Shown here: piece after piece, positions 9,499-45,295 of the stretch | How the letters are laid out: each line of letters starts with the position of its first letter | Numbering within the stretch: the stretch's first letter is position 1 | Origin: Natrinema marinum | Lineage (GTDB): Archaea; Halobacteriota; Halobacteria; Halobacteriales; Natrialbaceae | DNA length: 64,000 bases | NCBI RefSeq assembly: GCF_024296685.1 | Contig: NZ_CP100763.1 | Span: forward strand, 992,001-1,056,000 | Direction: 5' to 3' | Translations under genes and position numbers: made by a program | The notes under the pieces: model-generated | Told to the model about the DNA's origin: nothing | The model's database searches: none | The model's input: the letters and a program-made list of their open reading frames with translations, nothing else

Positions 9499-10911
9499 AT
9501 GAGCGATCCGTTCGTCGTCGTCGGTGGCGATGCAGCAGGGATGTCCGCAGCGAGCAAAGCCAAACGCGACGACCCCGACCGCGAGGTGGTCGTCTTCGAG
9601 AAAGGCGAGTGGGTGTCCTACGGCGCGTGCGGTCTTCCTTACTACGTCAAAGGTGAGATCCAGTCGCTCGAGGAACTCGTCTCGGTGACACCCGAGGAGT
9701 TCCGCGAGGAGCGCGACATCGACCTCCGGACGGGCCACGAGGTCGTCGATATCGATACTGACGCACGGACCGTCACTGTCGAGGGCGACTCCGGAACCGT
9801 CGTCCAGCCGTACGGCCACCTGCTGCTCGCAACGGGCGCGGAGTCGGTTGTCCCCCGGATCGACGGCACCAACCGCGACGGCGTGTTCACGCTCGGCTCG
9901 ATGAGCGACGGGAAGGAACTGCGAGAGTACGTCGCACGAGCGCGCGACGACGAGGATCTCCAGCAGCCGGATCGTGGGCCGGCCTGTCGGTATCTCGAAG
10001 ACTGTACCGGACCCGTCGGGGTCGTCGGGGGCGGCTACATCGGCGTCGAGATGGCCGAAGCGCTGGCGGCGAACGGCTTCGAAGTGAACCTCTTCCAGCG
10101 CGGCGATCGTGTACTGGACGGCTTCAGCGAGGAAACGAGCGAGCAGGTCGCCGCCCATCTCCGAGAACAGGGCGTCGCGCTCTTCCTCGACGCGGAAGTG
10201 CGGGCGCTGTCGGGCGGCGACCGCGTCGAGGCCGTCGTCACCGCAGACGAGCAGGTCGCGGTCGAGTTGGTGCTCCTCGGGACGGGCGTTCGCCCCCGAA
10301 CGGACCTCGCCGAGGACGCCGGCATCGACCTCGGCGAGACCGGTGCGATCGCGACCGACGCCTACCGCGAGACGAGCGCGCCGGATGTCTACGCGGCGGG
10401 CGACTGCGCCGAAGCGACCCACGTCGTCACGGGCGAACCGGCGTATGTTCCGCTGGCGCTGACCGCGAACCGACACGGCCGCGCGGTCGGCCAGACGGTC
10501 ACCGGGACGCCGACGGAAGGCGGCGAGATCGCCAGTACGGCAGCTGTCAAGGCCTTCGATGTCGAAGCCGCTCGAACCGGACTCATCGATCTCGAGGAGG
10601 CTCGCGAGGCCGGGTTCGATCCGGTCTGCAAGACGATCACGGCGAACTCGCGGGCCGGCTACTACCCCGAAGACGGGACCGTCACCGTCACCCTGACGGC
10701 CGACCGCGACTCCGGGCGCGTCCTCGGTGCGAGCCTGGTCAGCGAGTACGGCGAGGGCGCGGTGCACCGAAGCCACGCTATCGTCGCGGCCCTCGAGGCG
10801 GGAGCGACCGTCTCGGACGTGGAGAACTACGACCTCGCGTACGCGCCGCCGTTTAACACCACGTGGGATCCGGTGCTGGTCGCCGCGAAGGTCCTCTCGG
10901 ACGAGCTCTAA
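9499..10911 (+). CDS. CoA-disulfide reductase/NADH oxidase-type flavoprotein
   Basis: This is a 470-residue pyridine nucleotide-disulfide oxidoreductase. The FAD-binding motif is VVVGGDAAGMSAASKAKR at the N-terminus. The single active-site cysteine is in SYGACGLPYYVKGEI, the CoADR/NADH oxidase/persulfide reductase signature. The NAD(P)H motif is VGVVGGGYIGVEMAEAL near residue 170, and the second FAD motif DVYAAGDCAEA lies near residue 295. The C-terminal dimerisation domain contains SRAGYYPEDGTVTVTL. It probably reduces CoA disulfide, persulfide or oxygen in the cytoplasm. TTTATGG at 9470-9476 sits 26 bases before ATG 9499, supporting that start over the in-frame TTG at 9484. Confidence 0.88.
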   Translation: MSDPFVVVGGDAAGMSAASKAKRDDPDREVVVFEKGEWVSYGACGLPYYVKGEIQSLEELVSVTPEEFREERDIDLRTGHEVVDIDTDARTVTVEGDSGTVVQPYGHLLLATGAESVVPRIDGTNRDGVFTLGSMSDGKELREYVARARDDEDLQQPDRGPACRYLEDCTGPVGVVGGGYIGVEMAEALAANGFEVNLFQRGDRVLDGFSEETSEQVAAHLREQGVALFLDAEVRALSGGDRVEAVVTADEQVAVELVLLGTGVRPRTDLAEDAGIDLGETGAIATDAYRETSAPDVYAAGDCAEATHVVTGEPAYVPLALTANRHGRAVGQTVTGTPTEGGEIASTAAVKAFDVEAARTGLIDLEEAREAGFDPVCKTITANSRAGYYPEDGTVTVTLTADRDSGRVLGASLVSEYGEGAVHRSHAIVAALEAGATVSDVENYDLAYAPPFNTTWDPVLVAAKVLSDEL

Positions 10912-11713: not shown

Positions 11714-12760
11714 TCAATCGCCTTCCGCCGCGGAGTGCTCGCTCGCCTGCCGCCGCAATCCGGGCGCTATCGCGGGAACGTCCTTCGGGCTGACGGCGCC
11801 GTCGGCCTCGAGTTCCTCGACCGACTTCGGGAACTCCCGGAGCGACTTGTGGATCGCGATCCCCGCCTTCGCGCCCTGCCCCATCGCGACGGGGACCTGG
11901 TTGTGGCCGGGCGTCAGGTCGCCGACGGCGTACAGCCCGTCCACCGACGTCCGGCCGTGATCGTCGACCGCGACCGTGCCGTCGTCGTTCAGCTCCGCGC
12001 CGAGCCCGGCCGCGAGGTCGTTGTTGTACGCGCTACCGTACATCGCGAAACCACCCCGGTACTCGCGGACGGCTCCGTCGGCGAACTCCAGAGCCTCGAG
12101 CCAGCCGTCGTCGCCGTTTCGGACGCCGGTCACGTCTTCGCGGACGATATCGACGGGATGGCCCTCGAGCATCGCCGCCGTCTCGTCGCTCCACGTCGGC
12201 TCGTCGTCCCGGAGCAGCAGGTCGACATCGTCGGTGAAGTTGAGCATGATCATCGCGACGTAGGCCGCGCTCTCTCCGTGGCCCATCACATAGACGGGCT
12301 CGTCGACGAACATGTAGGCGTCGCAGTGCAGACAGTAGTGGAGCCCGCGTCCGGTGCGGGGCAGCGGCGGCTCGGGTCGGCCGTCCGAGAACCCGGTCGC
12401 GAGAACGACGCGCTCCGCGGCGGCCGGCCCGTTCGTCGTCTCGAGGGCGAACGCGTCGTCGACGCGTTCGATACCCGTGACGAACTCCCGGCGGTAGTCG
12501 GTCCCATACGACTGCAACTGGTCGACGGCCGTCGAGAGGAAGTCGTTGCCCGACACCGACTCCGGGACGCCGATGACGTTGTGGGTCTCCTGCATCATCG
12601 CGGCTCGACCGCCGCCGCGGTCGAATACCGCGGTCTCGTGTCCGAGACGCGTTGCGTACAGTGCGCTCGTGAGGCCGGCTGGGCCGCCGCCCACGACGGC
12701 GACTTCGTAGTATCGGTCGTCATCGATAGCGTCGCGGCTCGTCGACTCGTGGTTACTCAT
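11714..12760 (-). CDS. Thioredoxin-reductase-like NAD(P)/FAD-dependent oxidoreductase
   Basis: This 348-residue flavoprotein has an FAD motif VVGGGPAGLTSALYATRLG at the N-terminus. A central CxxC in LHYCLHCDAYMF corresponds to the C-A-T-C active site of thioredoxin reductases. The NAD(P)-binding glycines lie in VYVMGHGESAAYV, and the closing FAD motif is GLYAVGDLTPGHNQVPVAMGQG. It probably reduces a small dithiol or a thioredoxin/glutaredoxin-type partner in the cytoplasm. One 13-bp palindrome ends one base from the start codon and two more lie upstream. The divergent neighbour is an HxlR regulator, so this gene is the likely regulated target. The last 25 residues are a polar tail. Confidence 0.87.
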   Translation of the reverse strand: MSNHESTSRDAIDDDRYYEVAVVGGGPAGLTSALYATRLGHETAVFDRGGGRAAMMQETHNVIGVPESVSGNDFLSTAVDQLQSYGTDYRREFVTGIERVDDAFALETTNGPAAAERVVLATGFSDGRPEPPLPRTGRGLHYCLHCDAYMFVDEPVYVMGHGESAAYVAMIMLNFTDDVDLLLRDDEPTWSDETAAMLEGHPVDIVREDVTGVRNGDDGWLEALEFADGAVREYRGGFAMYGSAYNNDLAAGLGAELNDDGTVAVDDHGRTSVDGLYAVGDLTPGHNQVPVAMGQGAKAGIAIHKSLREFPKSVEELEADGAVSPKDVPAIAPGLRRQASEHSAAEGD

Positions 12761-12761
12761 C

Positions 12762-12774
12762 GTAACCCGGTTAC
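12762..12774. promoter_or_regulatory. Palindromic operator copy 1
   Basis: GTAACCCGGTTAC, a palindrome around a central C, lies one base upstream of the start codon (12760) of the flavoprotein gene. It would cover the transcription start of a leaderless transcript, a natural repression site. It is identical to copies 2 and 3. Confidence 0.8.
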
Positions 12775-12808
12775 GTCTCCGCAGCCATAAGTGTCAGCTA
12801 ACACGACG

Positions 12809-12821
12809 GTAACCCGGTTAC
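12809..12821. promoter_or_regulatory. Palindromic operator copy 2
   Basis: A second identical GTAACCCGGTTAC lies 47 bp from copy 1 and upstream of the AT-rich CTTATGG (minus strand, about 12785-12791) that could serve as TATA of the flavoprotein gene. Confidence 0.8.
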
Positions 12822-12879
12822 GATCCGGTAAGTGCCCCGGAATCGACCGGCGGGGCGCGTCGCGTTTCAGTTACAGACA

Positions 12880-12892
12880 GTAACCCGGTTAC
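12880..12892. promoter_or_regulatory. Palindromic operator copy 3
   Basis: The third identical GTAACCCGGTTAC is 71 bp from copy 2 and directly upstream of the TATA-like AATTTAAG (12899-12906) of the HxlR gene. It overlaps or abuts the BRE position and suggests autoregulation. Confidence 0.8.
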
Positions 12893-12898
12893 GGAACG

Positions 12899-12906
12899 TA
12901 ATTTAA
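12899..12906 (+). promoter_or_regulatory. TATA box of the HxlR-type regulator gene
   Basis: AATTTAAG is centred about 29 bases before ATG 12932. This predicts a leaderless transcript starting at that ATG and argues against the in-frame GTG at 12911. Confidence 0.6.
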
Positions 12907-12931: not shown

Positions 12932-13306
12932 ATGGACGAGCCGACACAGCGGCTGGACGTCTGGTGTTCCGGTGAGGAGTGGTGTCCGATCACCTCCACC
13001 GCGACGCTGATCGGCAAGAAGTGGCACACCGTCATTATTCACCGCCTACTCGAGAACGGTCCGCTCGGGTTCACCGCCCTCGAGGAAGAAGTCGACGGTA
13101 TCTCGAGCAAGGTCCTCTCCGACGCGCTCGACGATCTCGAGGACAAGCAGTTAGTGGATCGGGAGATCGTCAGCGAGAAACCCGTTCGCGTCGAGTACTC
13201 GCTGACCGACCTCGGCGAATCGCTCGAGCCCGTCATCGAGACGATGCGCGAGTGGGGTCGACAGCATCTCGCGGCCGCCTCGGACGAGGAGAGTTCGGTC
13301 ACCTAA
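12932..13306 (+). CDS. HxlR-family winged-helix transcriptional regulator
   Basis: This 124-residue regulator carries the HxlR signature: an N-terminal cysteine (WCSGEEWCPI), then LIGKKWHTVIIHRLLENGPLGF, and the recognition region EVDGISSKVLSDALDDLEDKQLV followed by the wing VRVEYSLTDLGE. HxlR proteins are dimeric, and several sense aldehydes, quinones or redox state through the N-terminal cysteine. Start ATG 12932 is supported by the TATA spacing. The divergent flavoprotein and the three shared palindromes point to control of that gene and of itself (inference). Confidence 0.9.
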   Translation: MDEPTQRLDVWCSGEEWCPITSTATLIGKKWHTVIIHRLLENGPLGFTALEEEVDGISSKVLSDALDDLEDKQLVDREIVSEKPVRVEYSLTDLGESLEPVIETMREWGRQHLAAASDEESSVT

Positions 13307-16921: not shown

Positions 16922-17443
16922 ATGCACTACAAAGCACTTGTACTCGCCGTTGCGGCGATGCTGGCAGTCGTTACTGGCGGCGTCGTTGCGGCTGATGCTG
17001 CGGGTCCCGATACGGCACAGGATATCGACCAATCGGACAGCGCGTACGATACACGGCTTACTGCAGACGAATCGTTCTCCACGCACATCTCGCAAGAGAA
17101 CATGACGGTCGTCGAAGATCGGACGAAGCTAACCGCAGACGAATCGTTCTCCACGCACATCTCGCAGGAGAACATGACGGTCGTCGAAGATTGGACGAAG
17201 CTAACCGCAGACGAATCGTTCTCCATGCACATCCCACAGGAGGATCGTGAGATGGCTGAACACCCGACGCGTCTAACCGTGGACGAGTCGATACAACTGA
17301 ATCCTGCTGAGGATAAGGTAACCGTTGAGCAGCAGTACGATCAGCGATTAACCGCCGAGGAGTCGTTTCAAATCAACTTCTCGGACGATGTTATCAAATC
17401 GCTGGTTGACGGGATCTACCGCATTGATCTAGCAGCCAACTAG
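16922..17443 (+). CDS. Secreted protein with 24-residue tandem repeats
   Basis: This 173-residue protein has a Sec-type signal peptide (MHYKALVLAVAAMLAVVTGG, cleavage likely after ADA near residue 26). The mature part is a chain of five imperfect 24-25-residue units beginning LTADESF at residues 46, 70 and 94, then LTVDESI at 118 and LTAEESF at 143. A short tail follows (FSDDVIKSLVDGIYRIDLAAN). The first two units are almost identical in DNA, showing recent duplication. No family is recognised. An AT-rich TATA-like block (16790-16812) lies 110 bp upstream, so a leader may exist. It follows the membrane regulator gene in the same direction. Confidence 0.75.
   Translation: MHYKALVLAVAAMLAVVTGGVVAADAAGPDTAQDIDQSDSAYDTRLTADESFSTHISQENMTVVEDRTKLTADESFSTHISQENMTVVEDWTKLTADESFSMHIPQEDREMAEHPTRLTVDESIQLNPAEDKVTVEQQYDQRLTAEESFQINFSDDVIKSLVDGIYRIDLAAN
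17057..17272 (+). repeat. 72-bp tandem repeat, three units, inside the secreted-protein gene
   Basis: Units at 17057-17128, 17129-17200 and 17201-17272 each encode 24 residues. Units 1 and 2 differ at only a few bases (for example CGG versus TGG near the end), while unit 3 has diverged in its second half. Two further units are recognisable only at protein level. This is the pattern of recent slippage or unequal crossing-over. Confidence 0.9.
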
Positions 17444-44497: not shown

Positions 44498-45295
44498 ATG
44501 AGAGTCGCACAGCTCGGGTCGGGAACGCCGGAGATCGCAGTCGTCGCGGGTATTCACGGGGACGAACCCTGTGGCGTCAGAGCCGTCCAGCGGCTGCTTG
44601 ACGAACGCCCGACCGTCGAACGCCCCGTCAAGCTCGTCGTCGCCAACGAGTCGGCGCTCGAGCGACAGGTGCGGTACGTCGACGAAGACTTGAACCGTGC
44701 GTTCCCCGGCGATCCGGACGCGACGACCCATGAAGGCCAGCTTGCCCACGAGCTCGTGGCGGAGCTCGAGGGCTGTCTGACCTTCTCGATGCACTCGACG
44801 CAGAGCCACGCCGACCCCTTCGCTATCGTCAAGGGCGTCGACGAGACTGCCAGGGAGATCGTTCCGCAACTGCCCGTCGCGGCGATGGTCGAGACGAGCA
44901 ATTTCGCGGAGGGGCGGCTCTTCTCGGCGATCGATACCGTCGAAGTCGAGTGCGGGCTTCAGGGCTCGGAGACGGCCGCGGAGAACGCCGACCGACTGAC
45001 GCGGGCGTTCCTCACCGCGGTCGGCGTCCTCCCCGGCGATACCGTCCAGCGGGAACTGCCGGTCTATCGGCTCACCGATGTCATCCGAAAGGACCAGGCC
45101 GAGACCTACGAGGTGTTCGTCGACAACTTCACCGAGGTCGAGGCGGGCTCGCCGTTCGCCGCGGCCGACGGCGACGAACAGATCGCCGAGGAATCGTTCT
45201 ATCCGGTCCTCATGTCGCCGAACGGCTATCAGGACGTCTTCGGCTACACCGCCGAGAAACTCGACGTGCTCGAGACGCCGGCGACGGCCGACTAG
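44498..45295 (+). CDS. Succinylglutamate desuccinylase/aspartoacylase-family protein
   Basis: This is a 265-residue zinc carboxypeptidase-fold protein. The zinc ligands are His and Glu in VVAGIHGDEPCGV, and the third His is in CLTFSMHSTQSHADPF near residue 95. DEDLNRAFPGDPD supplies the substrate-binding N-R-x-F motif, and VEVECGLQGSE gives the catalytic glutamate. Members deacylate N-acyl amino acids or related amides; the haloarchaeal substrate is unknown. The C-terminal 80 residues form a small beta domain. Confidence 0.85.
   Translation: MRVAQLGSGTPEIAVVAGIHGDEPCGVRAVQRLLDERPTVERPVKLVVANESALERQVRYVDEDLNRAFPGDPDATTHEGQLAHELVAELEGCLTFSMHSTQSHADPFAIVKGVDETAREIVPQLPVAAMVETSNFAEGRLFSAIDTVEVECGLQGSETAAENADRLTRAFLTAVGVLPGDTVQRELPVYRLTDVIRKDQAETYEVFVDNFTEVEAGSPFAAADGDEQIAEESFYPVLMSPNGYQDVFGYTAEKLDVLETPATAD

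Follow-up and report, generated by a model that had tools for sequence, protein, structure and literature searches.

A predicted shared operator between an HxlR-family regulator and a thioredoxin reductase-like flavoprotein in haloarchaea

Thiol-switch regulators and the Natrinema marinum locus

HypR, YodB and CatR of Bacillus subtilis and QsrR of Staphylococcus aureus are MarR/DUF24 (HxlR) redox sensors; they belong to the same Pfam family as the regulator described here, have a conserved N-terminal CP cysteine and target genes of the nitroreductase/disulfide-stress type. The YodB and QsrR regulons for quinone and disulfide stress comprise nitroreductases and quinone reductases (PMC6798810). 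In the SurR-Pdo system of the Thermococcales, an archaeal thiol-switch regulator is encoded divergently from a disulfide oxidoreductase gene. The long SurR motif GTTn3AACn5GTT has three half-sites with n3 and n5 spacers, and SurR sites are listed both for surR (52 and 108 bp) and for pdo (31 and 80 bp) (PMC12162507). MsvR of methanogens is another archaeal regulator with cysteine-dependent DNA binding, and an archaeal review names SurR and MsvR as thiol-switch regulators, with HxlR unmentioned (PMC7278568). Our literature search, covering publications outside subscription, found no description of a haloarchaeal HxlR redox sensor and no occurrence of the motif string analyzed below, in agreement with the original prediction that the operator is undescribed.

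The window analyzed in this study is a stretch of 64,000 nucleotides (positions 992,001–1,056,000) from the complete genome of Natrinema marinum (3,766,003 bp). It contains two divergent genes:

11714–12760, minus strand: thioredoxin reductase (TrxR)-like FAD flavoprotein of 348 aa (Pyr_redox_2, 4.1e-31) with a CLHC pair (Cys143, Cys146)
12932–13306, plus strand: HxlR-family regulator of 124 aa (Pfam HxlR, 7.5e-26; YodB, HxlR and HypR structures) with Cys12 and Cys18 (WCxGxxWCP)

The regulator belongs to the HxlR family (PF01638) with 90.3 bits against a gathering cut-off of 20.8, and scores below the curated cut-offs of RrpB (NF047364; 77.0 bits, cut-off 175) and RrpA (NF047367; 51.7 bits, cut-off 185). 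Its Cys18 aligns with Cys14 of HypR and with the N-terminal CP cysteine of YodB, ahead of the LxGxKW helix, and is thus a cysteine of the YodB/HypR type. Both Cys12 and Cys18 are invariant in 92/92 HxlR orthologs. Halobacterium salinarum has an ortholog (L261) with 71% identity. An HxlR regulator with N-terminal cysteines, as originally predicted, is hence recognized by Pfam, by structures and by its orthologs. The predicted CxxC partner was likewise found, since the Cys143/Cys146 pair of the flavoprotein is invariant in 38/38 sequences, as expected of a TrxR redox pair. The flavoprotein reaches 142.6 bits against TIGR01292 (cut-off 343.45) and is therefore called TrxR-like and not filed as TrxR. 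Its NADPH motif region reads GHGESA/LLLRDDEP; the usual TrxR motif is GxGxxA/HRRxxxR. A CoA-disulfide-reductase-like flavoprotein (PRK09564, 392.8 bits, below the cut-off of 458) is encoded nearby at 9502–10911. A homolog of the latter also neighbours the flavoprotein in a relative (locus L089), which may point to a conserved cluster of both disulfide reductases.

The circuit predicted from these genes and their intergenic region resembles HypR and YodB in function and SurR-Pdo in layout. Unlike the four bacterial systems, it has an archaeal promoter, a second invariant cysteine six residues upstream and the predicted operator GTAAC-n3-GTTAC-n5-GTAAC, and the partner is a TrxR-like flavoprotein instead of a nitroreductase or quinone reductase. 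SurR is an ArsR-related protein with a CxxC, binds GTTn3AACn5GTT and responds to a sulfur signal, whereas the protein found here is of the HxlR family and the operator has another sequence without the GTTn3AAC motif. As the two protein families are unrelated, the likeness to SurR-Pdo is one of analogy and not of homology. MsvR differs in family, operator and organisms.

Predicted operator sites at the two promoters

The 13-bp palindrome GTAACCCGGTTAC has exactly three matches in the whole genome, all located between the flavoprotein gene and the HxlR gene within 12762–12892. About 0.04 copies per strand are expected from base composition, and a 6-1-6 palindrome occurring three times within 150 bp was seen in none of 200 order-1 Markov simulations of the window. 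The genome-wide search returned a single further place with one mismatch, at 44773 (L004), where the open reading frame (ORF) listing has no clear redox gene beside it; this place was therefore discarded as a candidate. The sites and promoter elements are the following:

12762–12774: operator copy 1 (GTAACCCGGTTAC, predicted), -2 to -14 from the flavoprotein ATG, between TATA box and start; position relative to the TATA box kept in 24 flavoprotein promoters
12787–12790, minus strand: flavoprotein TATA box TTAT, -27 to -30 from the ATG, between both sites in 24/24 promoters; fits haloarchaeal TTWT
12809–12821: operator copy 2 (predicted), -49 to -61 from the flavoprotein ATG, 47 bp from copy 1
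12828–12832, minus strand: half-site-like CTTAC (GTAAG on the plus strand), 6 bp outside copy 2; match to GTTAC of at least 4/5 in 92% of 24 promoters
12880–12892: operator copy 3 (predicted autoregulatory site), -52 to -40 from the HxlR ATG (12932); kept at -50 to -53 in HxlR orthologs
12902–12906, plus strand: TATA box TTTAA of the HxlR promoter, -26 to -30 from the ATG, assigned from sequence

The original prediction of three exact copies in 131 bp and none elsewhere was borne out by the whole-genome count, with zero unrelated exact copies, and the described arrangement is correct as well: the start of copy 1 is 1 nt away from the ATG of the flavoprotein (A at 12760), the end of copy 3 comes 9 bp ahead of the regulator's TTTAA, and copy 2 lies between these two copies. 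The start-to-start distances are 47 bp from copy 1 to copy 2 and 71 bp from copy 2 to copy 3. A separate repeat, a 72-bp direct repeat in three copies, is present at 17063–17220 inside a small coding region (KLTADESFSTHISQENMTVVED repeats).

In Haloferax volcanii, 72% of the protein-coding transcripts are leaderless, and TTWT has been proposed as the haloarchaeal TATA motif (PMC4983044). Judged from the sequence, the distance between TATA box and ATG at both promoters is that expected of leaderless transcripts. With this spacing, copy 1 would fall between TATA box and start, and copies 2 and 3 just outside the BREs of the flavoprotein and regulator genes, respectively.

Inverted repeats are conserved in both the HxlR promoter and the flavoprotein promoter of the relatives compared. 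Twenty-four distinct flavoprotein promoters carry two copies of the palindrome exactly 47 bp apart, flanking the TATA box, and one copy of the pair usually adjoins the start codon. In the scored promoter set (which leaves out 20 extra short flavoprotein upstream stretches fetched as controls), all two-site promoters have a spacing of exactly 47 bp and match at 16–20 of 20 positions; the promoters that lack the pair, mostly from a more distant flavoprotein subgroup, reach at most 13/20 at this spacing. None of the shuffles (100 per promoter) attained the observed pair score. Since 47 bp corresponds to about 4.5 turns of B-DNA, simple cooperativity on the same face is not favoured.

Among 92 orthologous HxlR promoters, 32% contain a palindrome matching at least 9/10 positions, versus 0.6% of shuffles. 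The sites with at least 8/10 matches cluster at -50 to -53, and in roughly half of the 92 promoters a palindrome of that quality is absent. The site is retained at three loci (L055, L061, L062) where the flavoprotein is not a neighbour, and outside Natrialbaceae the upstream neighbour of HxlR varies, e.g., an isochorismatase-like gene (survey with rough ORF calls). The HxlR gene with its own site is thus the constant element.

The alignment of the sites revealed a third half-site 5 bases past the palindrome, giving GTAAC-n3-GTTAC-n5-GTAAC. This half-site is present at +18 in 84% of 57 HxlR promoters, where it overlaps the BRE/TATA region as in GTAACTATAA, and in 83% of 24 start-proximal flavoprotein sites, against a background rate of about 3%. 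The window itself contains the following half-sites:

12752–12756, minus strand: GTAAC, third half-site of copy 1, n5 after the palindrome, overlapping flavoprotein codons 2–3; 23-mer GTAACnnnGTTACnnnnnGTAAC with 0 mismatches
12870–12874, minus strand: extra half-site of copy 3, n5 away on the flavoprotein side; 23-mer with 0 mismatches
12898–12902, plus strand: GTAAT, third half-site of copy 3 (GTAAC in most relatives), overlapping BRE and TATA box of the regulator

Copies 1 and 3 thus match the 23-mer without mismatch on the minus strand, and copy 3 also matches with one mismatch on the plus strand, while copy 2 has the conserved CTTAC 6 bp outside in place of a third half-site. The proposal that the operator is a 13-bp palindrome stands as far as the palindrome is concerned but not in its extent; the flanking half-sites had been overlooked, and the predicted operator is longer. 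Neither the 47-bp pair nor the 23-mer, at 0–1 mismatch, was found at any locus of the N. marinum genome besides 12762–12892, and we therefore claim no further regulon members there.

Distribution in relatives and in other haloarchaea

Relatives with the same divergent flavoprotein–HxlR pair carry GTAAC-n3-GTTAC at the same places, with fixed spacing. The genera compared include Natrinema, Natronococcus, Natribaculum, Halobiforma, Natronorubrum and Natronolimnohabitans. In five genomes (G084, G290, G271, G095, G024) the flavoprotein is not beside HxlR in the stretch fetched, yet the 47-bp pair is retained; all five have a close HxlR, which in G084 is only about 2 kb off. Sites in both promoters, also where the genes are not adjacent, give in silico support to the divergent autoregulated redox circuit that had been proposed.

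Genome G020 encodes a flavoprotein with 75% identity and has neither a close HxlR nor palindrome sites. The exception is G262, in which the paired sites are present and a close HxlR is absent. At its locus (L089; ORFs 10–1020 and 1507–2538), an integrase-like ORF occupies the expected place of HxlR beside the flavoprotein with paired sites. Because this ORF lies directly upstream and the neighbourhood is otherwise like that of the window, G262 possibly carries an orphaned operator, and the absence of HxlR may reasonably be put down to a recent loss. HxlR presence and paired sites are not significantly associated (Fisher p = 0.11, with two genomes in the HxlR-minus sample). With the association by itself not significant, it is the conserved geometry, together with the predicted autoregulatory site, that carries the case.

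The palindrome in the form GTAACCNGGTTAC occurs in 45 out of 391 haloarchaeal genomes, usually in one copy, with a small number of copies located inside genes. Outside the genus of the window it is found near DoxX, nitroreductase, thioredoxin, AhpC/TSA, isochorismatase-like, DsrE-like and aldehyde dehydrogenase genes. In 14 loci (L025–L033, L034, L037, L039, L044, L174; motif at locus position 1501) it is located tens of bases before DoxX, nitroreductase, thioredoxin and peroxiredoxin genes, and some genomes with such an arrangement have no close HxlR ortholog. These palindrome-fronted genes appear similar to the quinone/disulfide-stress regulons of YodB and QsrR. The circuit may accordingly be wider than a simple pair, plausibly as part of a broader thiol-stress regulon that another regulator may share.

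Genus g51 has the palindrome in front of DoxX, yet a close HxlR ortholog is lacking in the two members searched (best 34–45% identity). The sequence can therefore serve a different protein as well, and in this genus it is probably read by a second regulator. In three other loci (L022, L023, L038) the palindrome is just upstream of a gene for a small MarR-like regulator, a possible candidate for this second reader. As a general binder of the palindrome, the small MarR-like protein is disfavoured by co-occurrence, being present in 20/20 genomes tested.

Proposed regulation and alternatives

We consider it likely that both genes are controlled through the intergenic region as their common operator, forming a divergent autoregulated circuit in which a thiol-switch HxlR protein represses itself and the TrxR-like disulfide reductase. 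HxlR dimers would bind GTAAC-n3-GTTAC(-n5-GTAAC) units, with GTAACnnnGTTAC as a candidate HxlR site. At the flavoprotein promoter, one unit would cover the region from the TATA box to the start and the other, 47 bp upstream, would lie just beyond the BRE, a placement by which reduced HxlR is proposed to block the promoter. At the HxlR promoter, a unit reaching from -52 into BRE and TATA box would block TFB/TBP and lead to autorepression. Oxidation or alkylation of Cys18, probably together with Cys12, would release HxlR, upon which the CxxC flavoprotein would be induced, restore the thiol state and reset the switch.

Two alternatives accept HxlR control of this region and are each rather improbable. 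HxlR may activate, or act oppositely at the two promoters, if TFB/TBP are recruited by the sites lying upstream (-52 for hxlR, -49/-61 for the flavoprotein), an ability that SurR has. Copies 2 and 3 are indeed in a possible activator position just upstream of the BRE, and SurR is both activator and repressor (PMC12162507), but occlusion is predicted both by the flavoprotein copy adjoining the ATG, whose third half-site falls within the transcript, and by the half-site that covers BRE/TATA of hxlR. The regulation may also be real with a signal other than thiol oxidation, e.g., a ligand, or a metal held by both cysteines. In favour of a non-thiol signal, the C-x5-C pair is invariant and could be a metal-binding pair, and B. 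subtilis HxlR is a formaldehyde-linked activator; Cys18, however, is the redox-sensing position of the family, the partner is a disulfide-reductase-like enzyme, and the other genes bearing the palindrome are thiol-stress genes.

Somewhat less probable still is a reading in which a different winged-helix protein conserved in haloarchaea, such as the small MarR-like protein encoded beside the palindrome in L022/L023, binds the palindrome and has HxlR as only one of its targets. This would fit the three genomes (G001, G007, G286) with a small MarR-like gene downstream of the palindrome and the g51 genomes with a DoxX palindrome and no close HxlR. The MarR family, however, occurs in every one of the 20 genomes tested, among them G020 with its flavoprotein devoid of sites, and within Natrialbaceae the sites go together with HxlR and its partner gene, with the HxlR promoter site kept where the flavoprotein is not adjacent. 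A chance or non-regulatory repeat (mobile element remnant, coding or RNA feature), for which only the repeat itself speaks, can practically be dismissed given the exact spacing and positions kept across several genera, the simulations and the uniqueness in the genome.

Control by HxlR itself may extend further, although we put this forward with clearly less than even confidence: a thiol/electrophile-stress regulon common to the whole class of haloarchaea (DoxX, nitroreductase, thioredoxin, peroxiredoxin, isochorismatase-like hydrolase and TrxR-like flavoprotein) could have the palindrome as its operator, read by an ancient two-cysteine HxlR and related regulators, and the n3/n5 layout of three half-sites would then have arisen independently of the SurR operator in Thermococcales.

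The interpretation as a conventional redox control circuit, not previously listed and with a newly defined predicted operator, is well supported in silico. The defined operator, the ortholog in the genetically tractable H. salinarum and the fixed geometry make thiol-stress control in haloarchaea directly testable, and the palindrome can be used for predicting stress genes in genomes without experiments.
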